A stretch of DNA of 35,115 nucleotides from Anaerolineae bacterium (GTDB lineage Bacteria; Chloroflexota; Anaerolineae; Aggregatilineales; Phototrophicaceae), in NCBI GenBank assembly GCA_022824565.1, contig JAJDZQ010000167.1, positions 1-35,115 of the forward strand. Direction: 5' to 3'. How positions within the stretch are numbered: position 1 is the stretch's first letter; each line of letters starts with the position of its first letter. This document shows positions 3,716 to 33,977 of this stretch, one piece after another. Below the pieces are notes generated by a model. The model saw only the letters and a list, made by a program, of their open reading frames with translations. It had not been told where the DNA came from and made no database searches. Both the position numbers and the translations under genes were made by a program.

Positions 3716-3722
3716 TCGCAAT

Positions 3723-9179: not shown

Positions 9180-9255
9180 ATCAACAAGGGTATGAATGAA
9201 AAAAATGAACCAGCAAGTACACCGAGTTGAATGAGCATACCGAGTGCTTTATAGC

Positions 9256-9298
9256 TCTTTGCCCTCTGTGTTCTCTGTGCCCTCTGTGTCCTCTGTGT
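9256..9298. repeat. CTCTGTG-type intergenic repeat, copy 2
   Basis: GCCCTCTGTG, TTCTCTGTG, CCCTCTGTG, TCCTCTGTG run in tandem, related to 8086-8119. It is in the 188-nt gap between pth and the beta-lactamase-family gene. Non-coding. Confidence 0.65.
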
Positions 9299-9367
9299 AA
9301 AAAATATGCACGATACTTTGTCCTTTCACATTTGTGGCATTGTGGCAATCAATAGGGAGAACCGACC

Positions 9368-17259: not shown

Positions 17260-18798
17260 TCAAGTGATGCTGACCATGCTGACGAGGTTGCTGGCCAGGG
17301 GATAAAAGATGCCGAAGATCAGAGTGCCCGCGAGAGCGATATTGATCGCCCAGCGCACATAGATTGTTTCCAGCGCCGGCACCAGCTCGCCACTGCTTTC
17401 GCGCAGATACATGTTGACGACCACGCGCATGTAATAAAAGGCGCTGACCACGCTGGTCAATACGCCGATGACTGCCAGGCCGACCAAGCCAGCCTGCACC
17501 GCCGCAGCAAAGACCATGAACTTGCCTACGAAGCCGGCTGTCAATGGGATGCCCGTCAAACTCAGCATGAAAATGGTCATCGCCATCGCCAGCAGAGGGC
17601 GTGAGCGCGCCAAGCCCGTGATGTCGTCTATGTTGCCGCCGCCGCCATCCACACGTTCAATGGTCATGACGACTGCGAATGCGCCCAGGTTGGTAAACAT
17701 ATAGGCGAGGATATAAACCAGCGCGCCTTGTGTCGCCGAATCGGCCGTGCCAGCCGTGCCAGCCGCCGCCAAGGCCACCATGATATAGCCCGCATGGGCG
17801 ATTGACGAATAAGCCAGCATGCGCTTGAGGTTGCGCTGCGAGATCGCCACAAAGTTGCCCAGCACCAGGGTCAGCGCAGCGATTATCGAGATAGTCGTTT
17901 GCCAGGCAGCTGCCCCGCCATCCACCAGCACCAGCACCGAAAGCGCCGTAACCAAAATGCGCAGCAGCGCCGCAAAGCCGCCGATCTTGGCTGTTACGCT
18001 CATCAAGGCTGTCACCGGAGTGGGAGCGCCTTCATAGACATCGGGCGTCCACATATGAAATGGCACAACCGCCACCTTGAAGCCCAAGCCAACTATCAGC
18101 AGCGCCGCGCCAACCACCAGATAGAAGGTCGCCGAAGATGCGGCGTCGACGACCGCAGGCGCAATCTCCAGAATCTGCGGGATGTTGGTCGTGCCGGTTG
18201 CGCCATAGACCAGCGCCGCGCCAAACACCAGGAAAGCGCTGGAAAACGCGCCCAGGATGAAGTACTTCATGCCGCTTTCTTCCGACTTCAACGCCAGCTC
18301 GCTGCCATCATTTTTGATCGAGCGGAAGGCCGCCAGAATGTATAGCGGGATGCTCAGCAATTCCAGCGCCACGAAGACGACAATCAAATCATTGGCGGCC
18401 ACCATGAACATCGCGCCGGCCGATGACAGCAGGGTCAAAATGTAATACTCGCCACGGTGGATGCCGGCTCGCTTGAGGTAATCGCGACTCATCAGCACGG
18501 CCAGCAACGTGGCGACCAGGATGACGATATTCAGGAAGCCCGTGAAGGCATCGGCGATGAACATGCCATAGAGCGCGGTCTGTTGGCCGGCAGCTGACGC
18601 ATAGACAAAGAGGTTGGCGACAAAACTGACGCCCAAGCCCAGGCAAGCCATCAGCGGCGTCCAGTGTTCGCGCTCGTCGCCAGCGAAGAGATCAACCAGC
18701 ACCAGCAGCAAGGTCCAAGCCACCAGCAACGTGCCGGGCAGCGTCGAAGCCAGGTTGGACTGGGTTACAAACTCCGCGATAGTGGGCGATTCAAACAT
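17260..18798 (-). CDS. nuoN: NADH-quinone oxidoreductase subunit N
   Basis: One of three antiporter-like proton-pumping subunits in the complex I membrane arm. The 512-residue protein has 14 predicted helices, the TM5 Glu146 in VALELLSIPLY, the TM7 Lys241 in LGFKVAVVPFHMWTPDVYEGAP, and NLKRMLAYSSIAHAGY with GIPLTAGFVGKF. AGGAG is six bases before the ATG; only eight bases separate it from nuoM. It is the last nuo gene. Length is slightly above the enterobacterial form, with no conspicuous insertions. Confidence 0.96.
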   Translation of the reverse strand: MFESPTIAEFVTQSNLASTLPGTLLVAWTLLLVLVDLFAGDEREHWTPLMACLGLGVSFVANLFVYASAAGQQTALYGMFIADAFTGFLNIVILVATLLAVLMSRDYLKRAGIHRGEYYILTLLSSAGAMFMVAANDLIVVFVALELLSIPLYILAAFRSIKNDGSELALKSEESGMKYFILGAFSSAFLVFGAALVYGATGTTNIPQILEIAPAVVDAASSATFYLVVGAALLIVGLGFKVAVVPFHMWTPDVYEGAPTPVTALMSVTAKIGGFAALLRILVTALSVLVLVDGGAAAWQTTISIIAALTLVLGNFVAISQRNLKRMLAYSSIAHAGYIMVALAAAGTAGTADSATQGALVYILAYMFTNLGAFAVVMTIERVDGGGGNIDDITGLARSRPLLAMAMTIFMLSLTGIPLTAGFVGKFMVFAAAVQAGLVGLAVIGVLTSVVSAFYYMRVVVNMYLRESSGELVPALETIYVRWAINIALAGTLIFGIFYPLASNLVSMVSIT

Positions 18799-18806
18799 AC
18801 AATCTC

Positions 18807-20411
18807 CTAGCGAACGAAGAGCGCCGCGATGCTATCGACCGAGATATCCAGCATGTTGAAAAAGACGATAGGCTGGATGCCCATCCAGAAGATCATGATG
18901 AGAATTGGGATGAAAGCCGCGATTTCGTTCCAGCGCAGTTTGTAACCAGCTTCATCCTTCAGCGGCTTCTTCAACTCGCCCATGAACACATGCTGGAACA
19001 TCTTCAGCAGGTAGACCGCCGCCAGGATGACGCCCAGGGTGCCAAATAGCGTGAAGGCAAAGCCCAGAAAATCGCTACCCAGCGAGCCCAGCAAGATGGT
19101 GAATTCGCCGATGAAGCCGTTCAAGCCCGGCAAGCCCATGCTGCTCAATGAAATGACGAGGCTGATGCCGCCAAAGACAGGCATGACTTTCCAGATGCCG
19201 CCATAGTCGGCCATTTCTTTGGTGTGCCACCGTTCGTACAGCATGCCCACGATGAGGAACAAGCCCCCCGTGCTGATGCCGTGATTGACCATTTGCAAGG
19301 TCGCGCCTTGCAAACCCTGCGCATTCAAGGCGAAGATGCCCAGCACGACAAAGCCCAGGTGGCTGACCGACGAATAGGCGACCAGCTTCTTGACATTGTT
19401 CTGCGCATAGCTGACCCACGCGCCATAGATGATGCCAACCACGCCCAAAAAGGCAATGGTCGGTGCCCAGGCCACGGTCGCTTCTGGAAACAGGTTGAGG
19501 TTGAAGCGCACGATTCCATAGGTGCCCATCTTCAACAACACGCCAGCCAATATGACCGAGCCGGCTGTCGGCGCTTGCACATGCGCATCGGGCAGCCAGC
19601 TGTGGAAAGGAAAGATGGGGACCTTGATGGCAAAGGCAACCAGGAAGCCCAGGAAAAGGAAGCTTTCTACAGAGCTGAAAAGGAAGCCCGGTTCGCCTTC
19701 TGCTTCGGCTTCTGGGGCATCCCAATAGGTGCCAGCGCCTTCATGCGACTGGACCATCTCGATGACGCCGACATCTCCGCCCGCGCTGTAGGTGCTGAAG
19801 GTGCCAGTGGTGTTGCCCACATACAGAATGGCAATCAGCATCAGGATGGAGCCGGCCATCGTGTACAAGAAAAATTTGACAGCGGCATAGATGCGTTCTT
19901 CGCTGCCCCAAATGCCGATCAAGAAGTACATGGGCACCAGCGTAACTTCCCAAAAGACATAGAAGATGATCAAATCGTGCACGACAAAAACGCCGATCAT
20001 CGCCCATTCCAACAGCATCAGGAAGATGTAATACAGCTTCTCGCGGCCTCGTTCTGCAAAGATATGGCTGCCGAACGAGCCGAGTATGGCGATGGGCATA
20101 ATGAAGGTCGTCAGCAGGACCAGCAGCATGCTGATGCCATCGACACCGACAAAATAACTGATATTGATGGCAGAATCGCCAAGCGACACCTCTGCCCAGG
20201 TATTGCGCTGCACCATTTGCAACTCGGCTGTGGCTGGGTCGAAGTTGATCCACATCAGCACCGATGCCACAAAGGTCACCAGGCTGGTCGCAAAAGCCAC
20301 CCACTTGAGGTTTTCCCGCTGCGTTTCGCCATTCATGAACAGCAAAATGGCAAGCCCCAGCATCGGCAAGAAGAGGGTGATAGTCGTCAGCGAGAGTCCA
20401 GTTACATCCAT
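18807..20411 (-). CDS. nuoM: NADH-quinone oxidoreductase subunit M
   Basis: Antiporter-like proton-pumping subunit of 534 residues. Glu155 in FYVFWEVTLVPMY, Lys263 in FAIKVPIFPFHSWLPDAH and Lys294 in GVLLKMGTYG are the expected channel residues. Between helices 6 and 7 (about 205-245) it carries an acidic insertion rich in Glu/Gly (DAPEAEAEGEPG), making it about 25 residues longer than the E. coli protein; helix parity places it on the outer face. It sits between nuoL (14-nt gap) and nuoN. Confidence 0.96.
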   Translation of the reverse strand: MDVTGLSLTTITLFLPMLGLAILLFMNGETQRENLKWVAFATSLVTFVASVLMWINFDPATAELQMVQRNTWAEVSLGDSAINISYFVGVDGISMLLVLLTTFIMPIAILGSFGSHIFAERGREKLYYIFLMLLEWAMIGVFVVHDLIIFYVFWEVTLVPMYFLIGIWGSEERIYAAVKFFLYTMAGSILMLIAILYVGNTTGTFSTYSAGGDVGVIEMVQSHEGAGTYWDAPEAEAEGEPGFLFSSVESFLFLGFLVAFAIKVPIFPFHSWLPDAHVQAPTAGSVILAGVLLKMGTYGIVRFNLNLFPEATVAWAPTIAFLGVVGIIYGAWVSYAQNNVKKLVAYSSVSHLGFVVLGIFALNAQGLQGATLQMVNHGISTGGLFLIVGMLYERWHTKEMADYGGIWKVMPVFGGISLVISLSSMGLPGLNGFIGEFTILLGSLGSDFLGFAFTLFGTLGVILAAVYLLKMFQHVFMGELKKPLKDEAGYKLRWNEIAAFIPILIMIFWMGIQPIVFFNMLDISVDSIAALFVR

Positions 20412-20426
20412 AGGACTGCGTTCTCC

Positions 20427-22970
20427 TTAAGAGCCAGTTTGCAGCAGGGACTGAATAAATGGCAGCAGCATGAGCACGATCACCGCGGCAACGCCAAAGA
20501 AAAGCACGATCGCGTACAAGCGGACATAGCCGGTCTGCGAGCGGCGCAGCCAGTTGGCAGCGCGCTCCACCAGCGCCCCCACGCCATTCACCGCGCCATC
20601 CACAATGCCCAGGTCAATCGGCTGGCTGAGCAGGGTGGCGATACTGTCGAAGCCGCGCTTGATGAGGCTGTCATGAAAATAATCGTGCAAGAACGCCCAG
20701 TCGACGCGGTCGGCCAAGAAGCCAGCCAGGCGATTGAAGGGCTGCTCAATTACGTTGGTATAGATCTCGTCCCAATACAAGCGCGCGTTCGCCAGGCGGA
20801 AGAGAGGCCGCGATGCGCCGCCAATCTCCAGCTGGTCGCGTTTGTTGCTGGCCAGCCCCTTGCCCTTGTAGATGCGGTGCGCCGCCACGATGGACGCGAT
20901 GCCCAGCACCAGCGCAATGCCGGCGATCAACAGGTTGAAGTCCAGCACATGGCCTTTCGAGACGCTGGATACGCTGTGCTCGAGGAAGTGCTTGAACTCA
21001 TAGGGATGATAAATGCCATCGAATAGCGGCGTGGCTTTGGGCACATTGATAAAGCCAATCAACAGCGTGAAGATGGCCAATACCAGCAAAGGCAGCAGCA
21101 TGGCGCCATTGCTTTCGGGCGCGCGCTCTGCCGCTTCGCTACGCGCATCATCGAAGAAAACCAACACAATCTGCCGCCACATGTAGAAGGCTGTGAAAGC
21201 CGCTGCAATCAACAAAACGCCAAAGGCAATAAAACCACTGGCTTCGTTCAGCTGGAAGCCTTCGTACCAGGCATCGGCGAGGATCTCATCTTTTGACCAG
21301 AAGCCGGCGAAGGGAAAGATTCCCGCCAGCGCCAAAGTGCCGATCAGATAGGTGATATAGGTGATGGGCATGCGCCGCCGCAAACCGCCCATGTTGCGCA
21401 TATCTTGCGGGTCGAAGTCATGACCCCCCTCTGTCCCTCCATCGGGATGTGGGGAGCTTTCGTCGTGGTGGTCGCCATGGTTGTGGTCATGCGCATGATG
21501 ATACCCATGCTCGACGCCATGGATCACCGAGCCACTGCCCAGGAAGAGCAGCGCTTTGAAAACCGCGTGCGTAACCAGGTGAAACATCGCCGCGACATAG
21601 GCGCCGATACCCACCGCCGCCACCATAAAGCCCAACTGCGAGATGGTCGAATAGGCCAGCACGCGCTTGATATCCCACTGCCCCAGCGCGATAAAGCCGG
21701 CCATGATGGCCGTGCCCGCGCCGACCAACGTGATAATCAAGCCGATAATGTAACCAGCGTGATTCAGTTCCCACAAGAAGACATTGCTGCGCACCATCAT
21801 GTAGACGCCGGCCGTCACCATGGTGGCCGCGTGGATGAGCGCGCTGACAGGAGTTGGTCCCGCCATGGCATCGGGCAGCCACACAAATAGCGGGATCTGC
21901 GCCGACTTGCCCGCCACGCCCAGCAGCATAAACAGAGCCGCCAGGAAGATCACATCGTCAAAAGCCAGTTGGAATCCACCAAAGTCAACCACAGCGTCTG
22001 TGCCGAAGCGCTCGGCAGTTTGTCCGAAGACGCCCAGCATCGCGCTGTCAAAATGCTGATTGTCGCAATACAAGTTGCGGATGTCCGATGCCAGCGGATT
22101 GGGCGAGCTGTGTGAATCGTAGGCGTCGTGTGCAGCGTCTGCGCCATGATCGTCGGCAGGGGCGGATTCGTAAGTGTCGGCGTTGCGCTGCGCGGCTGGT
22201 ACACAGACAACTTTCGCGCCATGCCCGTCATCGCTCGCGTCGCCATGGTCAGCCTCTGCATGCGCCAACAGCCCGTTATGTTCTTGCCAGCCCACCAGAT
22301 ACTTGGCGCTGGTATTTGGCAACTCGCCGGCTTTGAAGAAATCCAACGTGCCAAATGTCCAGAAGATCAAGAACATAGCCACCAGCAAGCCAAAATCGCC
22401 GATGCGGTTGACGATGAAGGCTTTGCGCGCGGCATTGCTGTTCTTCCAGCCTTCGGGCGCTTTTTTGTCCCACCAAAAGCCGATCAGCAAGAATGAGCAC
22501 AAGCCCACGCCTTCCCAGCCGACAAACAGCACCAGGAAGTTATTGGCGGTCACCAGGGTCAACATGAAAGCCAGGAACATATTCAAATAGGCAAAGAAGC
22601 GCGGATACCCTTTGTCGCCGTGCATATATCCGCGCGCATACAAGTGGATCAACGAGCCGACGCCCGTGACCACCAGCATCATCGTGACGCTGAGCGAATC
22701 CACGCGCAGCTGCCAACCGATATCCAGGTTTATAGACTCGATGCGCAGCCAGCCATCCAGGAACGGCGGATTGACCACCGCGGCCGCGCCGTTGGTGCCG
22801 GTTACATACACGAGCAGCAGCAGCGAAACCACAAAAGCGAAGAGCGAGGCGAAGCAGCCAATATAGCCCGACCACTTTTCGCCCAGGCGCGCGCCAAAGA
22901 AGAAGTTCACCGCCGCCCCGAGCGCGGGGGCAAAAATGACCAGCGGGACCAGGAGTGGCAGATTTTCCAT
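20427..22970 (-). CDS. nuoL: NADH-quinone oxidoreductase subunit L with two extra loops
   Basis: Distal antiporter-like subunit whose long lateral helix spans the membrane arm. Core residues are present: Glu153 in GWEGVGLCSF, Lys355 in GVAGKSAQIPLFVWLPDAM, THAVFKALLFLGSGSVIH, and FAGFWSKDEIL. At 847 residues it is far longer than the usual 610-670. One insertion (about 225-325) is rich in Asp/Ala/His and holds Cys256 and Cys302. A second (484-517) has 11 His in 34 residues, between GSVIH and the normal MGGLRRRMP. The C-terminus (about 680-847) contains the lateral helix and last transmembrane helix. No frameshift is seen. Confidence 0.95.
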   Translation of the reverse strand: MENLPLLVPLVIFAPALGAAVNFFFGARLGEKWSGYIGCFASLFAFVVSLLLLVYVTGTNGAAAVVNPPFLDGWLRIESINLDIGWQLRVDSLSVTMMLVVTGVGSLIHLYARGYMHGDKGYPRFFAYLNMFLAFMLTLVTANNFLVLFVGWEGVGLCSFLLIGFWWDKKAPEGWKNSNAARKAFIVNRIGDFGLLVAMFLIFWTFGTLDFFKAGELPNTSAKYLVGWQEHNGLLAHAEADHGDASDDGHGAKVVCVPAAQRNADTYESAPADDHGADAAHDAYDSHSSPNPLASDIRNLYCDNQHFDSAMLGVFGQTAERFGTDAVVDFGGFQLAFDDVIFLAALFMLLGVAGKSAQIPLFVWLPDAMAGPTPVSALIHAATMVTAGVYMMVRSNVFLWELNHAGYIIGLIITLVGAGTAIMAGFIALGQWDIKRVLAYSTISQLGFMVAAVGIGAYVAAMFHLVTHAVFKALLFLGSGSVIHGVEHGYHHAHDHNHGDHHDESSPHPDGGTEGGHDFDPQDMRNMGGLRRRMPITYITYLIGTLALAGIFPFAGFWSKDEILADAWYEGFQLNEASGFIAFGVLLIAAAFTAFYMWRQIVLVFFDDARSEAAERAPESNGAMLLPLLVLAIFTLLIGFINVPKATPLFDGIYHPYEFKHFLEHSVSSVSKGHVLDFNLLIAGIALVLGIASIVAAHRIYKGKGLASNKRDQLEIGGASRPLFRLANARLYWDEIYTNVIEQPFNRLAGFLADRVDWAFLHDYFHDSLIKRGFDSIATLLSQPIDLGIVDGAVNGVGALVERAANWLRRSQTGYVRLYAIVLFFGVAAVIVLMLLPFIQSLLQTGS

Positions 22971-23001
22971 ACTCAGACAGCCTCTTCCTTAGGACAAGCG
23001 C

Positions 23002-23310
23002 CTAGCCACGCATCTGCTGCAAGTCATCGATATTGATGCTTTGGCGCTCGCGGAAGATATTGACGATCAAGGCCAAGCCGATCGCCACCTCCGCCGCCGC
23101 CACAGTCATCACAAAAAACACGAAGACATGTCCATCGACCTGTCCCCATTCCCGCGCGAATGCCACCAGCGCAAGATTCGCCGAGTTCAGCATCAGCTCG
23201 ACAGACATAAAAAGCAAGATGGCGTTGCGCCGAATCAAAACGCCCAGCGCGCCCATCAAAAAGAGCACCATGCTGAGGATGATATATGGCTCTGTGCCGA
23301 TTGCGTTCAT
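23002..23310 (-). CDS. nuoK: NADH-quinone oxidoreductase subunit K
   Basis: Small three-helix subunit on the proton path between NuoJ/A/H and NuoN. The 102-residue protein is a normal length and has the two buried acids, Glu38 in FMSVELMLNSAN and Glu74 in VAAAEVAIGLAL. A good ribosome-binding site (GGGAGCAAAGGA) precedes the ATG. In contrast to neighbouring NuoJ and NuoL, it has no extra sequence. Confidence 0.97.
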   Translation of the reverse strand: MNAIGTEPYIILSMVLFLMGALGVLIRRNAILLFMSVELMLNSANLALVAFAREWGQVDGHVFVFFVMTVAAAEVAIGLALIVNIFRERQSINIDDLQQMRG

Positions 23311-23328
23311 CGTCCTTTGCTCCCGCCT

Positions 23329-24711
23329 TTAATCGGCTGGCTCGTCGCCGGGCGTCAATTTGGGCATATATTCTCCGCTGAGCACATCGGCACCGGTCTG
23401 CTGGGCGATCACACTGACCAGCGGGCGGTTGACTCTGCGGCGACGGTTGATGCGACGGCGCTCGGCTTGTGCCAAGGCATCGGGGCGCGCCAGCACGATC
23501 ACGCCGATCAAAGCCACCAGCAACAGCAGACCCACCAACATCACCGGCAGCACATAGTCGATGAAAAGCACTTGACCGACCGCTTCTGGGCTGCCAAAGG
23601 CGGGGATGGCAAAAGCGTGATAAACAGCCGCTCGATAAGCCGGCTGGCTGCCGGGCACGCCTGGCTCGCGCGCCAGCACCCGCGTTTCGATGACGCCCCG
23701 CTCGGCTTTGTAGTCGGCGAGGATGCGCAGCACAGCCTGGTCTTGGTCGACAAAAGCCAGGTTGTAATCGCCTTCGTCCAGTTCAATGCTGATCTGGTCG
23801 CCCAGCGGCAATTGGTCGATCAACACGCGATGCGGCAGCAGCGAACTGCATGCGCCATTCTCACACAAGCTGCCGATGGTCGTGTATTGCCCGACATCGA
23901 CCAGCGAAACCTGTTTATCCGCCAGCCCGTTGACCAGGGTTAGGCGCATCGTGCCCACGCTCGGCGCATGGATATCGTCTTCCAGCAGGGCGTATTCCAG
24001 CAAGCCATCGGCATTTTGATAAAGCAGCACGGTATGCGCGCTTTCGGCTGCCAGGCTGACTGTCGCGCTGTACACCTCGCCCGACTCGTAGCTGCCATCG
24101 CTGACGGTCGCAGAGAGCGTGTAGTCGCCGGCTGGCAAATCGGTATAGTCGCGGCTGCGCGCCCGCTCATCGTTGTAACGGACGGCTTCTATGGAAGCGC
24201 CGCTGCTGCCATCAGCCAGGCCCGCCAGGTTCACGCTGGCGGTGACTTCGTCCGTCAGGGGCATCTCGAAGCCCATTTCTAGCACGCGGAAATCCTGCGC
24301 ATCGCCACCGGGCACGGCATTGATGAGCCGCAGGCTGGCGCGCGCATCGCCACCATCGACAGCCTCGTCATTGAGCATGTCCGAGGCGATCGGGAAGGCG
24401 AAGATCATCAGCAGCGCGATCGCCACCAGCGAACCAGCCAAGCCCAGCCAGCGCATGCGTCCCGTGGCATCGGTGGTCGTCTCTGCGCCCAGCAGCATGA
24501 TAACAAACAAGAAGAGCACCATGATAGCGCCGGTATAGACCGTGACCTGCACCATGGCCAGAAATGGCGCATCCAGCATCAGATACAAAAAGGCGACGCA
24601 GCCAAAATTGACGATGAGGAAGAGCGCGCTGTGCACAGCATTTTGCCGGGTCAGCATCATTCCAGCCGCCACGACTGCCACTATGCTCACCACCAAGAAC
24701 AGCCATTCCAT
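23329..24711 (-). CDS. nuoJ: NADH-quinone oxidoreductase subunit J with large inserted domain
   Basis: NuoJ forms part of the central hydrophilic axis; its TM3 pi-bulge region is VTVYTGAIMVLFLFVIML (56-73). NuoJ is usually 160-200 residues; this one is 460. Helices 1-4 end near 110, then residues about 116-368 form a soluble, beta-rich insert resembling tandem DUF4397 domains: RASLRLINAVPGG, YTDLPAGDYTLSATV, HTVLLYQNADGLLEYALLED, then a second unit MRLTLVNGL ... GDYNLAFVD. It has CENGAC (Cys283, Cys288). The final helix YVLPVMLVGLLLLVALIGVIVL (386-407) resumes the normal fold, followed by an Arg-rich tail. Helix parity places the insert outside the membrane. The frame is continuous, so it is not a pseudogene. 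Confidence 0.94.
   Translation of the reverse strand: MEWLFLVVSIVAVVAAGMMLTRQNAVHSALFLIVNFGCVAFLYLMLDAPFLAMVQVTVYTGAIMVLFLFVIMLLGAETTTDATGRMRWLGLAGSLVAIALLMIFAFPIASDMLNDEAVDGGDARASLRLINAVPGGDAQDFRVLEMGFEMPLTDEVTASVNLAGLADGSSGASIEAVRYNDERARSRDYTDLPAGDYTLSATVSDGSYESGEVYSATVSLAAESAHTVLLYQNADGLLEYALLEDDIHAPSVGTMRLTLVNGLADKQVSLVDVGQYTTIGSLCENGACSSLLPHRVLIDQLPLGDQISIELDEGDYNLAFVDQDQAVLRILADYKAERGVIETRVLAREPGVPGSQPAYRAAVYHAFAIPAFGSPEAVGQVLFIDYVLPVMLVGLLLLVALIGVIVLARPDALAQAERRRINRRRRVNRPLVSVIAQQTGADVLSGEYMPKLTPGDEPAD
23608..24366 (-). other. DUF4397-like domain inserted in NuoJ
   Basis: Codons for about residues 116-368 of NuoJ. The pattern (R/L)-x-hydrophobic-x-N-A-x-x then D-L-P-A-G-x-Y-T-L then T-V-L-L-Y and a repeat is what I know of DUF4397 extracellular beta-sandwich domains. 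The assignment is by eye, not by profile search. Possible disulfide CENGAC. Confidence 0.6.
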
Positions 24712-24744
24712 AGGATTTAGTTCCCACCCTGAATGCGATTGTGC

Positions 24745-24773
24745 ATTTTAGCACGAATGATTTCGCGCTTCAA
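24745..24773 (-). promoter_or_regulatory. Internal promoter before nuoJ
   Basis: On the minus strand TTGAAG (24773-24768), 17-nt spacer, TAAAAT (24750-24745) preceded by TGC. It falls inside the 80-bp nuoI-nuoJ gap, the largest gap within the nuo operon. It would give nuoJ-K-L-M-N a second start site about 27 nt before nuoJ. Motif-based inference. Confidence 0.6.
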
Positions 24774-24791
24774 TTTGCAGTTCCTTCGCGC

Positions 24792-25286
24792 TTATGACGG
24801 GTCTTCCATATCGGGTATAGAGCGATTGTATGCGCCGGGTTCGACCTGCTGCGGGGTGCTGGCTGCGCCCTCGGCTGGCGAGTCGATCAGCATATCTTTG
24901 GCATAGATGGCATCGCGGCGGTCGGTATAGGACATCTGGTGTTCGTGCCCCAGTTGGATTGCCTCTGTTGGGCAGGCATCTTCGCAATATCCACAGAATA
25001 TGCAGCGCAGCATATTGATTTCATAGGTTTTGGCGAAGCGCTCGCCGGGGCTGTACCGTTCTTCGTCTGTGTTTTCAGCGGCTTCGACCCAGATCGCGTC
25101 GGCTGGGCAGGCGGCGGCACACAGCGAACAGCCGATGCACTTTTCCAAGCCATTTTCATAGCGCCGCAAATGATGACGCCCTTTATATCGTTGATGAAAC
25201 TTCTGCACCTGCTCTGGGTATTGAATCGTAACGGCATCTTCCATCAGATGCTTGGCTGTTGTCTGGAAGCCCTTGATCACATTCAT
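24792..25286 (-). CDS. nuoI: NADH-quinone oxidoreductase subunit I
   Basis: Ferredoxin-like subunit carrying clusters N6a and N6b in the connecting part of the peripheral arm. The 164-residue protein has CIGCSLCAAACP (Cys50, 53, 56, 60) and CIFCGYCEDACP (Cys95, 98, 101, 105). The open frame extends to 25556 over nuoH, but the ATG at 25286 begins the normal family N-terminus (MNVIKGFQTTAKHL) and has AAAGG upstream. The C-terminal tail after about 130 is longer than usual and Pro/Ala-rich. Confidence 0.96.
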   Translation of the reverse strand: MNVIKGFQTTAKHLMEDAVTIQYPEQVQKFHQRYKGRHHLRRYENGLEKCIGCSLCAAACPADAIWVEAAENTDEERYSPGERFAKTYEINMLRCIFCGYCEDACPTEAIQLGHEHQMSYTDRRDAIYAKDMLIDSPAEGAASTPQQVEPGAYNRSIPDMEDPS

Positions 25287-25335
25287 CGTCGCCAACCTTT
25301 GCGTCGTTTGTGGGGATAATCTCTCATGCGGATAG

Positions 25336-26904
25336 TTAGTCACCGGCGCGTTTGATAGCTGTTTCGCTGCTTTGCAGGGCGCGGTCTTCGTCGGGCGTTC
25401 GTCCGAAAGAGGCCATGCCTTCCAACGCGCGCACCTGGAAGCGGATATGCGCCAGCGGGAGCGCCACCAGCATGCCAACCAGATGCACCAGCGCCCAGCC
25501 CAATCCGCGTCTTTCGCCCGTGTAAGCGGGGTCGTCTTCCAGCGGGATGGCAACATCGCTGTCTTGCTGCCGGCTCATCCGTTGCAAAGCCACATAGCCG
25601 AGCAGCAGCGCCAGCACGATTACGACGCCCGAGATGAATGGATAGGCTGTGCCGCCCAGCGCCTCGCCAACCACAACAGCGACCGCCGTCCAAGCCACCG
25701 CCAGCAGCGCCAGCGGGATCATCACTTTCCAGCCAAATTGCATCAGCCGGTCATAACGTATGCGTGGCAGGGTCGCGCGAATCCAGATCATGCCGCAGAG
25801 CATAAGCACGACTTTGATGATGAAAATCAGCGGCGCAAGGATGGGCAATCCATCCATGGGCCACAGATGATAGCCACCAAAGAACATCGCGACCGCCACC
25901 AGGCTTACCGCAATCATGCCCAGGTATTCCGCCATCATAAACAAGGCGAACTTCATGCCGCTGTATTCGGTCATGTAACCCTGCGTGAGTTCTTGCTCGG
26001 CTTCGGTGAGGTCGAAGGGAGCGCGATTGGTTTCTGCCAACAGCGCCAGCAGCAAGACGGCGGCGGCCAGCGGATTTTGGAATACGAACCAGTCCCAAAT
26101 GTTGCGCTGCGCATCGATGATATCGCCCAGCGCCATGCTGCCGACGATCATCACCGGCACCGCCAAGGTCAACGCAAAACTGAGCTCGTAGCTAATCATC
26201 TGCGCCGAAGCCCGCAGCGCGCCCAGCATGGCGTATTTGTTGTCGCTCGACCAGCCAGCCAGCACGACGCCGTAGGTGGCGATGCTCGTGATGGCGACCA
26301 CCCACAATACGCCGACATTGGAATCGATCAATCCTTGTGGCACCTGGAACCAGACATCGCCCAGCTCCGGCGCGAACCAGGGCAACACCAGGTCGGGTCC
26401 CATGGGGATGACAGCCGCGATCATCAATATCGGGATGACCTTGATCATGGGCGCGAGGCGGAAGACCCACTTATCGGCACCCGCGGGCAGCAAATCTTCT
26501 TTGAAAACCAGCTTGACGCCATCGGCAGCCGGCTGCATGAAGCCCAGCGGACCGACGCGATTGGGTCCCACGCGATGCTGCAAGAAAGCCAGCAGACGCC
26601 GTTCCAGCAGAGTCGAATAGGCAAAGCCGGTGACGATGACAAAAGCAAAACCCGCCGCAAAAATGATGGGCCAAAGCCCCGAGCAACCCGCATCGTCTTC
26701 GCATTGGATGACTTTGCCCACGCGCGCTTCGGGATTTAGCAGCATGCCGATCGCGCCCTGGCGTCCGTCCAGGTTGCCCGCTTCGTCAAAGCCGATCCAG
26801 GCAGCGATGGCACCCAGGTTGGCGATGATCAACAAGACAACCAGCAAGGTGATTACCAGTCCACTGACAGCTGCCGCGATGCCCAGCTTTACTTTTAGGC
26901 TCAT
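25336..26904 (-). CDS. nuoH: NADH-quinone oxidoreductase subunit H, extended
   Basis: Membrane subunit forming the quinone chamber and linking it to the pumps. Core motifs: LLERRLLAFLQHRVGPNRVGP (99-119, abbreviated), QPAADGVKLVFKED, AETNRAPFDLTEAEQEL (290-306), TEYSGMKFALFMMAEY and WIRATLPRIRYDRLMQFGWK. Length is 522 against about 325-365 normally. An extra helix (about 8-38) and a loop with Cys68 and Cys74 precede the canonical first helix; by parity this loop is outside. After about residue 415 there are two further helices and a polar tail (EDDPAYTGERR and TPDEDRALQSSE). AAAGGAAA precedes the ATG. Confidence 0.95.
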   Translation of the reverse strand: MSLKVKLGIAAAVSGLVITLLVVLLIIANLGAIAAWIGFDEAGNLDGRQGAIGMLLNPEARVGKVIQCEDDAGCSGLWPIIFAAGFAFVIVTGFAYSTLLERRLLAFLQHRVGPNRVGPLGFMQPAADGVKLVFKEDLLPAGADKWVFRLAPMIKVIPILMIAAVIPMGPDLVLPWFAPELGDVWFQVPQGLIDSNVGVLWVVAITSIATYGVVLAGWSSDNKYAMLGALRASAQMISYELSFALTLAVPVMIVGSMALGDIIDAQRNIWDWFVFQNPLAAAVLLLALLAETNRAPFDLTEAEQELTQGYMTEYSGMKFALFMMAEYLGMIAVSLVAVAMFFGGYHLWPMDGLPILAPLIFIIKVVLMLCGMIWIRATLPRIRYDRLMQFGWKVMIPLALLAVAWTAVAVVVGEALGGTAYPFISGVVIVLALLLGYVALQRMSRQQDSDVAIPLEDDPAYTGERRGLGWALVHLVGMLVALPLAHIRFQVRALEGMASFGRTPDEDRALQSSETAIKRAGD

Positions 26905-26925
26905 ACTAGGTTTCCTTTGCCATCA

Positions 26926-29457
26926 TCAGCGGGCCGCCAGCGCATCTGCCACACGGCTGACCGTGCCGACGCTTGCGGACAAGGGCACAGCTGCGTCGGT
27001 CAAATGGCGCGGCAAAGCCAGTCCGCCCGCCGCTACCTCGCTGCTCACCGATGCGCGCACCCGCACTTTCGACTCGCCAGCGGCAATCTCAATGAGTTCG
27101 CCATCAATGATGCCAGCCGCTGCGGCATCGTCAGGATGGATCAACGCGTAGGGACTTAGTATGCGCTGCTCGACCAGCAAGCTCGGGCGGAAACTGCGCT
27201 GGCGATTGTACAAACGGGTGATGGGCATGACGAGCAGCTCGCCTTCGCCAGCCCGCAGCCCTGCGCTATCGGCAATATCGGTTGTCTGCACAACTGTGCC
27301 GCTGTCGGCCGCCGTGGGGATTTGCAAGCCGATGCCGCCGTGATTGGTATAGGCCGTGCCGCCATAATACAGGTCGCGGCCACCCACATCCGGGAATTGC
27401 CGTTCGGTCTTTGCTAGCGCCCGATAGTCTGCGCCCTGAAAAGCAGCGACTGACCTGCTCAATTCCAGCATAAGGGCCGCGGCTGAAGGTTTTTGGTTGG
27501 CGATGCCGGCCTGCTGGCTGATGCCGCCAAAGAGCTTCCAGGCGGGCAGCGCCTGCCCCATGGGTCCCTGCGCGGTATAGAAGCGTTGCACGCGCCGTTC
27601 GCCATTGACAAAACTGCCATCGCGCTCGGCAAAAGACTGCAGCGGCAAAATAAAATCGGCGCGCTGGGAGATGCCATCGTCAAAAAGCCCGGCATATATG
27701 ATCGTTTCCACCTGGCTCAACCATTGCTGCGCGGTCGGATCGTCGTCCAGCAACTCGGCCTGCGCGACAATCAAGACGCGCGGTGGCTCTTGCCTGATGT
27801 TCAACGTCGATTGCGGGGAGAAGCCGAGGTAATGCAAACCCAGGCCATTGGCGCCCGGCAGCGGCGAAAGCAAGCCGTTATTGGCGCGGCCTGTGTGTCC
27901 GCTCTCGACCAAGAAGTTGGCGGCTGCGGCGGCCAGCGCTTCGCTTCCGGCCAGGCTCAGCCCTTCCGCGCCAGCCACAATGACCAGATTCTCGGCGCTG
28001 GACAGCCGTTCCGCAATGTGCGGATGCGTATTTTGCAGGTCGCGCATGACCGAGACAGCTGCGCCCGGCGCATAACGGATGGCATCGCCTTCGACAACCT
28101 TGTCATTGCGCGCGCCTTGCACAGCAAAGTCTTCCAGCCGCGTGTCGCGCGCATTCGCCACCACCAGGTATGCGCCGCGGTCTTGCGCCTGTTTCAAGCG
28201 CAGACGCCAGATCGGCACTTCTTCTTCCAGGTCGCAGGCGATGACCAGAATTGCGTCGCCCCTGCCCAATTCGCTCAGGTTCGTGCCCGCGCCGACACCG
28301 ACTTGCTGCAAATGCGGAGCCGCGCCGTGCGTGGGGGGCCAGGCGCCCAGCCGGTCTGCGCCGACGCCTTCCAGCAACTGTCGCAGCGCCCACAGATCTT
28401 CGTTGGACAGGCCGCTGCCAGCGATCGCCGCGACATCGCCATCTGCGCCCTGCACTGTCGCCGCCATGGCCGCGATGGCTGCTTCCCAGTTGGAGTTTCG
28501 CAATGTGCCGCCGGTGCGCATTTGTGGCTGCTGCAAGCGATCTTCTGCCCGCGTGAAGTGATGCCCAAAGCGCGTTTTGTCGCTGATCCAAATCTCGTTT
28601 ACCCATTCGTTCTGGCGCGGCATGACCCGTTTAATCATGGCTTTGCCGCCAAAATCGCGATCGAGGCGCATGCTCAAGCTGATATTTTCGCCAGCTGCAT
28701 CCCAAGGCGAGATGCTGGGCACTTCGTTGAGCTCCCACGGGCGCGCGCCAAAGCGAAAATCGGCGGTGGTCAGGGCACCGACCGGGCAAATATCGGTGGT
28801 GTTGCCGCTGAAGTAGGTGTCGAAGCCAGGATCGGAATGGGTGATGATTTGCAAGCGGCGTCCGCGTTCATGAAATGCCAGCACATCGTCGCCGACCACT
28901 TCGTCCTGGAAGCGCACACAACGGGCGCACTGAATGCAACGTTCGCGGTCGAGGAAGATCAGATCGCCCAGCGGGTAGTGTTTTTCCAGCAATTGCTTGT
29001 CTTCGAAGTACATGCGGCTGGCTTGGGGACCATGGCGCATGGTCAAGTTCTGCAGCGGGCATTCGCCGCCCTTGTCGCAGATTGGGCAATCCAGAGGATG
29101 GCTGCTGAGCAAGAATTCCAGCACATCGTTGCGCGCGTCGATGACCTGCTGCGTGTTGGTCTTGATGTGCATGCCAGCGCTGACGGTGGTGGTGCAAGCG
29201 GTTTGCAGCTTGGGGAAGTAGCGGATTTGCAGGCTGCCATCGTCGTTGCGCAGCAAGTCGCCAGTCGCGCGATCGCGCCCGGGCGTACCCAGCTCGACCA
29301 GGCACATGCGGCACATGCCGACCGGGTCCATCTTCGGGTGGTAGCAGAAGACGGGGATATCGTTGCCGGCCTTCCATTTGGCGGCATCCACCAGATTTGC
29401 GCCAGCCGCCACTTCATAATCTTGCCCATCAATATTGATGGTCACTGTGTCGGACAT
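26926..29457 (-). CDS. nuoG: NADH-quinone oxidoreductase subunit G
   Basis: Large iron-sulfur subunit of the peripheral arm (843 residues). N1b: Cys38, 49, 52, 88; N5: His120, Cys124, 127, 133; N4: Cys174, 177, 180, 224. The region that holds extra cluster N7 in some bacteria reads VPSISPWDAAGENIS (247-260) with no Cys, so N7 is absent. A degenerate molybdopterin-oxidoreductase-like domain follows (about 240-840), with YDDGISQRADFILPL-type residues and a terminal molydopterin-dinucleotide-like beta domain (SPYALIHPDDAAAAGI). Its ATG directly follows the TAA of the upstream TPR gene, implying coupling. Confidence 0.96.
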   Translation of the reverse strand: MSDTVTINIDGQDYEVAAGANLVDAAKWKAGNDIPVFCYHPKMDPVGMCRMCLVELGTPGRDRATGDLLRNDDGSLQIRYFPKLQTACTTTVSAGMHIKTNTQQVIDARNDVLEFLLSSHPLDCPICDKGGECPLQNLTMRHGPQASRMYFEDKQLLEKHYPLGDLIFLDRERCIQCARCVRFQDEVVGDDVLAFHERGRRLQIITHSDPGFDTYFSGNTTDICPVGALTTADFRFGARPWELNEVPSISPWDAAGENISLSMRLDRDFGGKAMIKRVMPRQNEWVNEIWISDKTRFGHHFTRAEDRLQQPQMRTGGTLRNSNWEAAIAAMAATVQGADGDVAAIAGSGLSNEDLWALRQLLEGVGADRLGAWPPTHGAAPHLQQVGVGAGTNLSELGRGDAILVIACDLEEEVPIWRLRLKQAQDRGAYLVVANARDTRLEDFAVQGARNDKVVEGDAIRYAPGAAVSVMRDLQNTHPHIAERLSSAENLVIVAGAEGLSLAGSEALAAAAANFLVESGHTGRANNGLLSPLPGANGLGLHYLGFSPQSTLNIRQEPPRVLIVAQAELLDDDPTAQQWLSQVETIIYAGLFDDGISQRADFILPLQSFAERDGSFVNGERRVQRFYTAQGPMGQALPAWKLFGGISQQAGIANQKPSAAALMLELSRSVAAFQGADYRALAKTERQFPDVGGRDLYYGGTAYTNHGGIGLQIPTAADSGTVVQTTDIADSAGLRAGEGELLVMPITRLYNRQRSFRPSLLVEQRILSPYALIHPDDAAAAGIIDGELIEIAAGESKVRVRASVSSEVAAGGLALPRHLTDAAVPLSASVGTVSRVADALAAR

Positions 29458-29802
29458 TTATGCCTCCGCATGGGTCGCAGTCGCAGCCGGCAGATGGCGC
29501 GCCACAACTTCCAGTCCAAAGAGCGCTCGGTCGCGCATGACTTGTTCTTCAATCAGCCAGCCAGCCCGCACATCCAGCGACTCGCCCATGCGCAACGCAG
29601 CGTCAAAGTCGGCGCGCGCACGCTGGTAGTCGCGCCGCTGCAGCAGCATCTCGCCACGCAAAACATGCAAGGTGGCGTTCTCGGGCTGCGTGGCGATGGT
29701 CTCGTTTAGCAGGCGATATCGCCCGAAGAAGTCGCGCTCCTTCTGCAAAGACGAGCGAAACAATGCGCCCGGCAACACCTGCAACAGTCGCTTCAAGTTC
29801 AT
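29458..29802 (-). CDS. Small TPR-like protein between nuoF and nuoG
   Basis: A 114-residue protein not part of canonical complex I. It is helical; residues about 43-76 (ATLHVLRGEMLLQRRDYQ and RARADFDAALRMGES) fit one TPR repeat, with flanking helices that may form incomplete repeats. No signal peptide or metal motif. It starts three bases after the nuoF stop, and its TAA is followed immediately by the nuoG ATG (TAAATG), so the three genes are tightly coupled. A role in assembly or as an accessory subunit of the NADH-dehydrogenase module is a reasonable inference, not shown. Confidence 0.82.
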   Translation of the reverse strand: MNLKRLLQVLPGALFRSSLQKERDFFGRYRLLNETIATQPENATLHVLRGEMLLQRRDYQRARADFDAALRMGESLDVRAGWLIEEQVMRDRALFGLEVVARHLPAATATHAEA

Positions 29803-29805
29803 CGG

Positions 29806-31056
29806 TTAGACCTGCACATGCTGGGCAAAATCATCGGGAAAGTGGCGGATGGTATGGATAATCGGGTTGGCGGCGAAATCGCCCAATGCGCAGAGAGTCG
29901 TGCCCGCCATATTTTCTGCGACATCGGCGATGCGCTTGACATCGTCGGCTGTGCCGCGTCCATCCAAAATGCGGTCGATCACCTTGTCCAGCCAATATGT
30001 GCCTTCGCGGCAGGGTGTGCATTTGCCGCAGCTTTCGTGCTTGAAGAATTTGGTCACTTTGGAAGCGACCCAGGTCATATCGACCGTTTCATCCATGATG
30101 ATGATAGACGCCGAGCCGATGATTGTGCCGATGCCCGCGCAATCTTCATAACTCATGCGCGTATCGAGCACCTCGTCGGTCAAGGGCACGATGGGACCAG
30201 AGCCACCCGAGGGCAGCATGGCTTTGAACGGGCGGTCGTCGTGCAAGGGTCCGCCAGCCTGTTCATAAAGCAGTTCGCGGAAGGTCGTGCCCATAGGCAG
30301 TTCATAATTGCCCGGCCGCTTGACATGCCCGCTGACGCAATAGATTTTGTTGCCGGCGCTCTGCTCGGTGCCGATGGCTTTGAACGCGTCTGCGCCCTCG
30401 GTCATGATGAAAGGCACATTGGCCAGGGTCTCGACATTATTGACGACGGTGGCTTCTTTGTACAAGCCGCCGCCTTTCTGGGCCGGGAATGGCGGCCGCA
30501 CGCGGGGCTGCCCCAGATAGCCCTCCAGGCTGTTGAGCAAGGCGCTTTCTTCGCCACAGATATAGGCGCCCGCGCCGAGGTGCGTGTAGACTTCACAATC
30601 GTAGCCCGAGCCGAGGATATTTTGCCCGACCAGGTTTTTCTCGCGCATGGCTTCGATGCAGGCATCCAACTGGTCGCCGATATCCCAGAATTCGCCGCGC
30701 AGGTAGATGTAGACGGCTTTGGCCTGGATGGCATAGGCGCAAATCAAAGAGCCTTCGATCAGCTGATACGGGTTCTCTTCCATGATTTCGCGGTCTTTGA
30801 ACGTGCCGGTTTCGCTTTCGTCGGCGTTGACCGTGACATATTTAATCGGCTCGTGCTGGGGGATGAAGCTCCATTTGACGCCAGTGGGGAAGCCCGCCCC
30901 GCCGCGGCCGCGCAACCCAGAGGCTTTGACGACATCAATGACCTCGGCTGGCGTCATGGCCAGCGATTTGCGCAGCCCTGCGAAGCCGCCGTGCGCTTCA
31001 TAGACTTCCAGCTGCTTGATATTGGGGATATCGCGTCCACGCAGGAGAATGTGCAT
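29806..31056 (-). CDS. nuoF: NADH-quinone oxidoreductase subunit F
   Basis: FMN- and NADH-binding subunit where electrons enter complex I. The 416-residue product has SGLRGRGGAGFPTGVKW (46-62) for NADH/FMN, the second glycine-rich GAGAYICGEESALLNSLEG (161-179), and cluster N3 ligands Cys343, 346, 349 (SCGKCTPCREG) and Cys389. Length is normal. It begins 27 nt after nuoE and precedes the small TPR gene by three bases. Confidence 0.98.
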   Translation of the reverse strand: MHILLRGRDIPNIKQLEVYEAHGGFAGLRKSLAMTPAEVIDVVKASGLRGRGGAGFPTGVKWSFIPQHEPIKYVTVNADESETGTFKDREIMEENPYQLIEGSLICAYAIQAKAVYIYLRGEFWDIGDQLDACIEAMREKNLVGQNILGSGYDCEVYTHLGAGAYICGEESALLNSLEGYLGQPRVRPPFPAQKGGGLYKEATVVNNVETLANVPFIMTEGADAFKAIGTEQSAGNKIYCVSGHVKRPGNYELPMGTTFRELLYEQAGGPLHDDRPFKAMLPSGGSGPIVPLTDEVLDTRMSYEDCAGIGTIIGSASIIIMDETVDMTWVASKVTKFFKHESCGKCTPCREGTYWLDKVIDRILDGRGTADDVKRIADVAENMAGTTLCALGDFAANPIIHTIRHFPDDFAQHVQV

Positions 31057-31083
31057 GGTTGGCTGTGCTCCTTCGCCCGTCGG

Positions 31084-31578
31084 CTAGCCGCGCCCGTTCG
31101 CTTCGCTGCGCCACTTCGCCAATAGCTGGCGCATTTTGTTTTGGTCGAGCTCTTCTACATAACGAAAATTGCATTGCAACATGGGCGCTTTGTCACAAGC
31201 CGCCAGGCACATGACATGCTCGACGGTGAACAAGCCATCGTCTGTGGTGCCGCCCTCGGCAACGCCCAGTTCGTCTTTCAGCCAGGCATGAAAAACATCA
31301 GCGCCTTGCAACGCGCAAGGCAGGTCGGTGCAAACTTGCAGCCAATACTTGCCTTTGGGCTTCTCGCTGTACATGGTATAGAAGCCCGCGATGGATTTGA
31401 CCTGGGTGGGATCGAGGTTGAGGAGCTGCGCGACCTCGCCGATGCCCTCGCTATTGACCCAGCCATATTCTTCCTGCGCGATGTAGAGCAGCGGCATGAC
31501 AGCCGAACGTTTGGTTTCGTATTTAGCCAGATGCCGCTCGATGCGCGCCGCATACTTCGGGTTGCCGATGATCGCCAT
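31084..31578 (-). CDS. nuoE: NADH-quinone oxidoreductase subunit E
   Basis: Thioredoxin-like subunit binding the [2Fe-2S] cluster N1a. The 164-residue product has Cys83 and Cys88 (VCTDLPCAL) and Cys124 and Cys128 (MCLAACDKAP). The open frame extends to 31623, but the ATG at 31578 has GAAGGAAGG just upstream and gives the normal N-terminus MAIIGNPKYAARIERH. It lies between nuoD and nuoF. Confidence 0.97.
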   Translation of the reverse strand: MAIIGNPKYAARIERHLAKYETKRSAVMPLLYIAQEEYGWVNSEGIGEVAQLLNLDPTQVKSIAGFYTMYSEKPKGKYWLQVCTDLPCALQGADVFHAWLKDELGVAEGGTTDDGLFTVEHVMCLAACDKAPMLQCNFRYVEELDQNKMRQLLAKWRSEANGRG

Positions 31579-31610
31579 GTGCCTTCCTTCGTCCGTCGCT
31601 CCAGCGCCAG

Positions 31611-32885
31611 CTAGCGGTCGCAATCGCCCAGCACGATATCCACGCTGCCGATGATGGCAACCATATCCGCCAGCAGATAGCCTTTCGAAACGACAGGCAG
31701 CGCGCTGATGTGCATGAATGAGGGCGTTTTGAAATGAACGCGGCGCGGTTTGTTTGCGCCTGTGCCATGGATATAGCAGCCGATTTCGCCGCGCGGACTT
31801 TCGATGGCGCTGTAGATTTCGTCATCCGGCGCATCATAGCCATAGGTCCACAATTTGAAGTGGTGGATGACGGCTTCCATGCTCTGCCCCAGCTCACTGC
31901 GCAGGGGCGGACAATATTTGCGGTTTTCCGAGCGGGTCGGTCCTTGCGTCCGCTCCAGCCGAGCAAGCGCCTGTTGCAAGATTTTGAGGCTTTCGCGGAA
32001 TTCGTGAATGCGTATCAAGTAGCGGTCATAGACATCGCCATGTTCGCCCAGCGGCACATTGAAGTCATAGGTTTCATAGCCGCTGTAGGGTTGGGCTTTG
32101 CGCAGGTCCCAGTTGACGCCACTGCCGCGCAGGGCTGGGCCTGTCATGCCATAAGCCAGCGCGACATCTGGCTCGACCACGCCAACGCCTTGCGAGCGGT
32201 CTTTCCAGATTGGGTTCTGCGTCAGCAACGCTTCATAATCATCGACTTTGTAGGGGAAGTCTGCCAGGAATTGCTTCAATGTCGGCAGAAATTCGGCTGG
32301 CACATCGCGCCAGACGCCGCCGGGGCGAATGTAGCTGCTCATCATGCGCTGCCCAGAGAGCATCTCGAACATGCCGAGGATGCGTTCGCGCTCGCGAAAG
32401 GCATAGAGCAGCACGCTCATCGCGCCCATATCAATCGCGTGTGTGCCCAGCCAAACCAGGTGACTGGCACAGCGCGCCAATTCCAGACAGACGACGCGGA
32501 TGATCTGCCCGCGTTCGGGCACATCCAGGTCGAGCAATTTCTCGACAGCCGCCGCATACGCCATGTTGTTGGACATGGGCGACAGGTAATCCATGCGGTC
32601 GGTGAGCGGGACGGCTTTTTCGTAGCTCTTGTCTTCGATAGATTTTTCGATGCCGGTATGCAAGAAGCCGATATCGGGCAGGCAGGTGACGATTTGCTCG
32701 CCATCCAGTTCCAGCAGCAGGCGCAAGACTCCATGTGTGCTGGGATGATGCGGACCCATATTCAGCAGCATGGTATCGCCGCTGACAGCGCGCTCGGTAA
32801 CCAGTCCGCGCAACTGCTCGAGGTTGCCTTCCCAGCGGCGCTGTTCTTCGAGCGATGCCTCTTGTGATGGTGCTGCGACTGCCAT
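31611..32885 (-). CDS. nuoD: NADH-quinone oxidoreductase subunit D
   Basis: 49-kDa-type subunit that forms the quinone-binding site with NuoB. The 424-residue protein has NMGPHHPSTHG with His47 and Tyr100 in DRMDYLSPMSNN, the residues that contact quinone in other complexes, and a C-terminal IVLGDCDR in place of the usual GEVDR-type end. About 35 N-terminal residues precede the core. It starts 11 nt after nuoC and is a separate gene, unlike the fused nuoCD of enterobacteria. Confidence 0.97.
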   Translation of the reverse strand: MAVAAPSQEASLEEQRRWEGNLEQLRGLVTERAVSGDTMLLNMGPHHPSTHGVLRLLLELDGEQIVTCLPDIGFLHTGIEKSIEDKSYEKAVPLTDRMDYLSPMSNNMAYAAAVEKLLDLDVPERGQIIRVVCLELARCASHLVWLGTHAIDMGAMSVLLYAFRERERILGMFEMLSGQRMMSSYIRPGGVWRDVPAEFLPTLKQFLADFPYKVDDYEALLTQNPIWKDRSQGVGVVEPDVALAYGMTGPALRGSGVNWDLRKAQPYSGYETYDFNVPLGEHGDVYDRYLIRIHEFRESLKILQQALARLERTQGPTRSENRKYCPPLRSELGQSMEAVIHHFKLWTYGYDAPDDEIYSAIESPRGEIGCYIHGTGANKPRRVHFKTPSFMHISALPVVSKGYLLADMVAIIGSVDIVLGDCDR

Positions 32886-32896
32886 AGCGACCTCGT

Positions 32897-33466
32897 TTAG
32901 TCCTTGGCGAAAGGCTTGTGCGCATGGATTTCTTCGACATTAAAGGAGAAAGCCACGGTCTCCTTGCCCAGCGGATAATCGCGCCGGTGCGGGTGGCCGT
33001 GCCAGTCTTCGGGCATCAACAAACGCCGCGGGTCTGGATGATCGTCAAAAGCGATGCCCATCATATCGGCGATCTCGCGCTCCAGCCAATTCGCCGCGGG
33101 GAAGACGACCGTGCCAGATGGCAAGCGCGGATCATCGGCGGGGGCGAAAGCTTTTATGCGCAGGCGCCGGTTGTAGAGCATGGACAAGATGTGATAGCAG
33201 ACGCCATAGCGTTCGGGGCGATAGTCGCTTTGGCTGCCATCGTAGGCAGCGCCAAAATCGTCCGGGTAATAATCAACCGCGCTGACATCGGAGAGCATGT
33301 TGTAGACCAGGCCCGGGCTGGCGCGGAAGAAGCCCAGCAATTCTGGCAGGCGAGCCGCTGCGACCACCAAGGTCGTTTCGCCGCGAAAATGCTTGACATG
33401 CAAGATAGCGTCGCCAAAAGCATCTCGCGCCGCTTGCACCGGGTCTCTCGCCGCTGGGATCTCCAT
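32897..33466 (-). CDS. nuoC: NADH-quinone oxidoreductase subunit C
   Basis: 30-kDa-type peripheral subunit supporting NuoD and NuoI, without cofactors. The 189-residue protein has the family region REIADMMGIAFDDHPDPRR followed by PEDWHGHPHRRDYPLG. The open frame includes two TTG codons upstream, but AAGAAGGAAG is six bases before the ATG at 33466, so I use that start. It follows nuoB after 28 nt. Confidence 0.96.
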   Translation of the reverse strand: MEIPAARDPVQAARDAFGDAILHVKHFRGETTLVVAAARLPELLGFFRASPGLVYNMLSDVSAVDYYPDDFGAAYDGSQSDYRPERYGVCYHILSMLYNRRLRIKAFAPADDPRLPSGTVVFPAANWLEREIADMMGIAFDDHPDPRRLLMPEDWHGHPHRRDYPLGKETVAFSFNVEEIHAHKPFAKD

Positions 33467-33494
33467 CAACAACTTCCTTCTTTGCGCCTTGTGC

Positions 33495-33977
33495 CTATGC
33501 CCAGTCGGCGATGCGCTCGCCTTTGACTTTTTCGTGTAGGGTCAAGATGCCATGCAGCAATTGTTCGGGGCGTGGCGGGCAGCCAGCGATGTACACATCA
33601 ACCGGGATGATCTCGTCAACGCCCTGCACAATGGCATAGTTGTTATAAACGCCGCCGCAAGAAGCGCAGTCGCCCATGGAGATGACCCATTTTGGTTCTG
33701 CCATCTGGTCATAGAGCTGGCGAATGACCGGCGCCATCTTGCGCGTCAGCCGCCCGGATACGATCAACAAATCGGCCTGGCGGGGCGTGGCGCGGTTCAA
33801 TTCCATGCCAAAACGCGACAAATCGTAGCTGGAGGCTTGCGAACTCATGTATTCGATGGCGCAACAAGCCAAGCCAAACAGCAGGGGCCACATCGCCCCG
33901 GTGCGCGCCCAATTGACAGCTTGCTCGACGGTCGTCGTGACGACGCCCAGGTTGCCAAGCTTCTCGCTTACTCCCAT
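33495..33977 (-). CDS. nuoB: NADH-quinone oxidoreductase subunit B
   Basis: Binds cluster N2, which reduces quinone. N2 ligands are Cys38, Cys39 (GLACCAIEY), Cys104 (GDCASCGG) and Cys133 (AGCPPRPEQ). Cys107 is extra: most homologues have Ser or Asn there. I start at 33977, where AAGGCGG lies six bases upstream; an ATG at 33998 has no ribosome-binding site. This start lies inside nuoA, whose TAA falls ten bases on (ATGGGAGTAA). Length 160 is normal. Confidence 0.97.

Follow-up and report, generated by a model that had tools for sequence, protein, structure and literature searches.

NuoJ carries the TM3 bulge, a central element of the coupling models now current for complex I, and it is usually a small and undecorated subunit. 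The window, i.e. the whole stretch of 35,115 nucleotides from an Anaerolineae bacterium analysed here, contains a nuoJ gene of more than usual length. From the letters of this stretch an earlier sequence-only reading had proposed a NuoJ with a large additional domain between its last two helices. This locus therefore raises the question of whether the domain is genuine, what it is and where it lies, and which role it might have in complex I.

The nuoJ gene and the core of NuoJ

The gene is part of a nuo operon, and the following features were located.

17260..33998, minus strand: nuo operon, nuoB to nuoN, with nuoJ flanked by nuoI and nuoK
23329..24711, minus strand: nuoJ, complete open reading frame of 460 amino acids with the insert
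24376..24711, minus strand: NuoJ helices 1-4, residues 1-112, with the TM3 segment VYTGAIMVLFLFVIML, assigned by PF00499 and by alignment to solved NuoJ chains
23482..23595, minus strand: last helix of NuoJ, residues 373-410, assigned by alignment with M. smegmatis NuoJ and with helix 5 of Thermus Nqo10
23332..23481, minus strand: C-terminal tail of NuoJ with ERRRINRRRRVNR, probably cytoplasmic because of its positive charge

The reading frame starts with ATG and has zero internal stops. The gene order around it is nuoH, nuoI, nuoJ, nuoK, nuoL, with nuoI upstream and nuoK downstream. PF00499 (NuoJ) in Pfam matches residues 16-111 with E = 1e-36 and 126.3 bits against a cut-off of 33.2, and helices 1-4 can be aligned with NuoJ chains of known structure, Thermus Nqo10 among them. 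When Nqo10 was compared with the NuoJ profile of the genus, profile positions 13-77 matched Nqo10 13-77, and positions 373-417 matched Nqo10 122-166, weakly but in collinear order. M. smegmatis NuoJ was matched by profile positions 364-423, a match which is weak alone and collinear with the N-terminal one. The normal helices 1-4 and normal last helix of the sequence-only reading are thereby confirmed. In the genus alignment 77% of the columns in TM1-4 and 84% of those in TM5 are invariant, and the NuoJ core is unchanged despite the insert.

The protein shares with NuoJ/Nqo10/ND6 helices 1-4 and 5, the TM3 sequence and the operon position between nuoI and nuoK. It differs in its insert of 260 residues, whereas the chains matched in a PDB sequence search carry no inserted domain of such size, every matched NuoJ/ND6 chain being 162-252 residues long as compared with 460 amino acids here. 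The 460-residue protein is thus a variant of NuoJ and still a member of the family. The sequence-only reading knew of no described example; likewise, we found no earlier description of a complex I with such an insert in that PDB search or in the open-access literature, a search in which subscription papers are thinly covered. DUF4397 is mentioned in three papers of this literature, none of which concerns complex I by its title.

Authenticity of the insert and selection

A full-length, stop-free long NuoJ was found in all of the other same-genus genomes searched (33/33, identity 62-97%), and for 19 of these 33 copies the named source contig could be identified, the contigs belonging to separate metagenome assemblies. 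One relative with 92% identity (L035, contig MPMG01000004) comes from bin20 of the Aplysina aerophoba sponge metagenome, where it is labelled Chloroflexia (PMC5649159). Full-length orthologues in the 33 genomes and across the order rule out an assembly chimera, and there is practically no chance that the insert is either such a chimera or a frameshifted neighbour gene.

For five close sequences, the insert has a dN/dS ratio of 0.16-0.27, whereas the ratio is 0-0.11 in helices 1-4 and 0-0.10 in the region made up of helix 5 and the tail. The insert evolves faster than the NuoJ core, yet it is clearly under purifying selection, and so it is maintained.

Identity of the insert

The sequence-only reading had described a folded, beta-rich and extracytoplasmic module at 23608-24366 (residues 116-368), between helices 4 and 5, having two repeats of a DUF4397 type and a CENGAC pair. 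The flanking helices identified by alignment agree with this insertion site, and the bounds were correct within a few residues.

23596..24375, minus strand: insert of NuoJ, residues 113-372, a tandem DUF4397 module predicted to be extracytoplasmic
23974..24348, minus strand: first DUF4397 beta-sandwich, residues 122-246, assigned by the Pfam match at 185-262 and the model
23662..23973, minus strand: second beta-sandwich, residues 247-350, assigned by the model and a fold match
23848..23865, minus strand: C283-ENGA-C288 pair in the second domain

The Pfam search of NuoJ gave a match above cut-off to PF14344 (DUF4397) at residues 185-262 (E = 7.3e-9, 36.7 bits, cut-off 30.6), and the insert searched alone gave E = 1e-9 and 39.4 bits. 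A DUF4397 match at E <= 0.001 was obtained in 19 of 19 order members scanned, the best being 2.8e-24, and the proposed DUF4397 identity is upheld. In the window protein a single stretch, the first repeat, passes the profile, whereas the second is recognised from its fold and from an alignment with relatives. Both repeats can be made out in the family alignment, and relatives show the tandem clearly, so the claim of two repeats also stands.

The first sandwich is poorly conserved within the genus (6% invariant columns) and the second better (37%). All 20 sequences of the genus alignment keep the CENGAC pair (C283, C288) unchanged; the other families aligned lack it, and it is thus a genus-level and not a family-wide feature. 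Judging from the sequence, the two cysteines likely form a disulfide in the second domain. A phmmer search of the insert against the PDB gave no match, and the sole NCBIfam match, of adhesin type, was set aside as sub-threshold (E = 0.018).

Secreted tandem DUF4397 proteins (PF14344) of the Chloroflexota likewise have two tandem repeats with a similar linker, which reads DNLSaPaaGqAKVRVYH and DDISAPSVGKMRLTLxN in the comparison of inserts with standalone proteins. The standalone proteins have signal-like N-termini, and in some of them there are further repeats and a hydrophobic segment at the C-terminus, whereas the insert is embedded in the polytopic NuoJ. Such proteins elsewhere in the phylum are a likely source of the insert. 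In the best tree of inserts and standalone DUF4397 proteins the inserts form one clade with weak support (73/29), which is compatible with a single origin.

Fold model and structural likenesses

AlphaFold2 modelling of the insert alone gave an all-beta model with a pLDDT of 79.9 and a pTM of 0.81 (best of five models, the lowest having 54.1), i.e. a confident model of the folded beta module that had been proposed. The model of full-length NuoJ had a mean pLDDT of 62.6 and was poor in the membrane part, which places the orientation of the module relative to the membrane outside its reach.

The closest fold in the PDB is the extracellular domain of PepT1/PepT2 (Foldseek E = 3.2e-8, Z 13.8), aligned over ~180-189 residues with an rmsd of 3.0-3.5 and 12-15% identity. 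In the mammalian PepT1/PepT2 (SLC15), too, a tandem of Ig-like beta-sandwiches interrupts an outer loop of a transport protein; however, they belong to an unrelated transporter family and the likeness is one of architecture, which is no proof of kinship. Single domains of HGSNAT were the next matches (Z 11-12), followed by AlgF (Z 10.3 and 7.8). AlgF, which acts in alginate O-acetylation in Pseudomonas, shares the beta-sandwich fold with the insert domains, but it is a separate protein without a link to respiration. One standalone DUF4397 protein had a sub-threshold AlgF match. Cholesterol-dependent cytolysins and pVHL were discarded as relatives, since a Z of about 6-8 reflects common beta-sandwich resemblance.

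Membrane side of the insert

According to passages in PMC10212512, NuoJ has five helices, and the TM3-4 loop is involved in the open/closed rearrangements of the peripheral-arm interface, on the cytoplasmic side. The TM4-5 loop should accordingly face out. The insert is acidic (41 D/E versus 16 K/R) and the tail after helix 5 is strongly basic. From homologous topology and charge we infer that the insert lies on the outer face of the membrane, where the sequence-only reading had put it. An insert facing the cytoplasm and contacting the peripheral arm is very improbable, being contradicted by the basic tail, the acidic insert, the five-helix topology and homologous structures. As helix 4 of bacterial NuoJ is described as lying towards NuoL helix 16 (in part of PMC11522691), the module should emerge close to the NuoL anchor.

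Distribution and evolutionary history

A profile search (A2) of the 151 genomes of the order found an intact long NuoJ in 128, across five families. The long form was split by contig ends in 4 more genomes (G056, G058, G083, G088). A short NuoJ was present in 10/151, namely in families f2, f5 and f6 and in one genome, G096, of family f3, and in 9/151 the main NuoJ was not found by this search. A survey with PF00499 was rejected as a basis for these counts because it listed mainly short paralogues. The survey of NuoJ lengths in relatives thus bears out the insert first seen in a single gene, but it is an order-wide trait and no one-off.

In a sample of the class, a long NuoJ was found in all 15 same-order genomes, every long form having E = 2.3e-88 or better. 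An insert-bearing NuoJ was not found in the 234 other genomes of this sample (best match E = 1.9e-44 or weaker), nor in 299 others of a phylum sample (best E = 7.4e-44); both sets are samples and their draws overlap. Long open frames in G161 and G186, outside the order, were dismissed as upstream read-through.

On a tree built by a quick method from six complex I subunits other than NuoJ, with a root resting on one long outgroup row, the state of NuoJ changes twice. The long forms make up one clade, which stands apart from f5/f6 and from f2, and the short G096 is nested inside it. One gain and one loss suffice for the distribution of the insert. In G096 (L075, L115) the rest of the operon is kept and f3-like, and its short NuoJ is an apparent secondary loss of the insert.

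The TM4-TM5 loop of NuoJ is used at least twice, by unrelated domains. Two genomes of another class, G612 and G651 (L078, L079), have a different insert of ~110 residues in this same loop, matched by the Pfam P2 domain at E = 1e-5 and 25.9 bits, just above the cut-off of 23. Also outside the order, G425 (L080) has a longer NuoJ outer loop with about 70 extra residues and two Cys.

Other complex I elaborations and genome context

Two further subunits of the same operon are elaborated.

26671..26904, minus strand: N-terminal extension of NuoH, an extra hydrophobic segment and a loop with C68-x5-C74
21957..22352, minus strand: expanded TM6-TM7 loop of NuoL, residues ~207-338, of low complexity with two Cys, extracytoplasmic by homology

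The TMH6-7 loop of NuoL is given as periplasmic in Paracoccus (in part of PMC11522691). The Cys pair of the NuoH extension occurs in most order genomes looked at, though not in f2, and since it is present also in the insert-less f5/f6, elaboration of the outer face probably predates the NuoJ insert. NuoL has in addition a His/Asp-rich loop (window 21375-21512) before MGGLRR; the NuoL of a second cluster has a similar loop, which is therefore probably common. The interval between nuoF and nuoG holds an open reading frame of 114 amino acids (29458-29802, minus strand) without an NCBIfam match at E 1e-5.

The second cluster encodes a membrane arm (L072, G000:C128:60000-79000, ~743-10434) with nuoA, H, J, K, L, two NuoM-like genes and N, read from the open reading frames by eye, and its layout is 2M-like. 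Its NuoJ is short; the module is therefore no general requirement. A second NuoD relative was seen as a 626-aa frame on contig C14. Other respiratory proteins encoded in the genome are c-type cytochromes, a c-fused oxidase, and a bc-type cytochrome b accompanied by a Rieske protein. At 3975-5882 of L121 (G000:C92:24000-35000) lies a 636-aa cytochrome b with a long C-terminal extension, adjoined by a Rieske protein and several c-type cytochromes.

Possible roles of the module

We tentatively prefer the following explanation, to which we give somewhat less than an even chance. A secreted-type tandem DUF4397, i.e. two Ig-like sandwiches, would have been inserted once and in frame into the TM4-TM5 loop of NuoJ, in the ancestor of most of the order, and would have been kept afterwards. 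The module would sit on the membrane arm at its outer (positive) side, next to NuoH, NuoK, NuoN and the NuoL-anchor end. Here it may act as a covalently attached brace or cap which stands in for absent supernumerary subunits and lies outside the catalytic and pumping mechanism; it would be attached to neighbouring subunits and have a stabilising role.

Three observations favour a brace. In other bacteria core-subunit extensions and periplasmic hairpins are described as replacing supernumerary subunits (passages in PMC11522691 and PMC8357420), several subunits of the present complex I are elaborated on the outer face, and of the two domains it is the second, better conserved one that connects to helix 5. 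The explanation also agrees with the confident beta fold, the unchanged NuoJ core, the purifying selection on the insert, the use of this loop by a different domain in an unrelated lineage and the short NuoJ of the second cluster. The loop of E. coli NuoG, the periplasmic hairpins of Paracoccus and the C-terminal tail of M. smegmatis NuoJ, as far as the sources cover them, likewise enlarge core subunits in particular lineages and are considered stabilising; those are loops, tails and hairpins, whereas the module here is a predicted folded two-domain structure on the outer face. Tight packing of the first domain is hard to reconcile with its fast evolution. A stabilising role, if there is one, can be dispensed with, since NuoJ is short in one f3 genome and f2, f5 and f6 are without the insert; together with the fast first domain this indicates that pumping does not require the module.

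The main rival, though on balance unlikely, is a docking platform in which the module would bind a hypothetical outer-face partner and place complex I beside it. Candidates are a bc-type complex, a c-type cytochrome, the cell wall or a surface layer. The nearest fold points in this direction: the PepT extracellular domain is reported to bind trypsin, with trypsin recruitment as its proposed role, and to be removable without appreciable loss of transport (in part of PMC4597091). Further points in favour are the secreted appearance of the standalone tandem relatives and the presence of the cytochromes and oxidase above; a second complex I without the module would suit specificity for a partner. 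However, fold similarity alone shows no function, and no NrfD-family protein was found in the genome at E <= 0.001, so that alternative complex III is not indicated as the partner. A more specific form, in which NuoJ would be the anchor of a surface recruitment module tying this complex I, and not the other, to a specific outer-face partner in analogy to the trypsin recruitment of PepT, appears more doubtful still.

The insertion might also be merely tolerated, having little function, harmless in an exposed loop and persisting since precise removal is rare. The fast evolution of the first domain, the one apparent clean loss together with absence from f2/f5/f6, and the different domain in the same loop of another lineage, which shows that the site tolerates inserts, all speak for this possibility. 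Against it stand the purifying selection on the insert, the better conserved second domain and the intact state of the gene in five families, and we consider it improbable, though less so than a chimera or a cytoplasmic insert.

Meaning for complex I

An order-wide, selected and folded outer domain means that NuoJ is able to carry a large module beside the E-channel. It also means that complex I can gain parts on its outer face by domain insertion, instead of by recruiting separate subunits. The insert-bearing clade, its sister families without the insert and the one lineage with a seeming loss provide a natural comparison.
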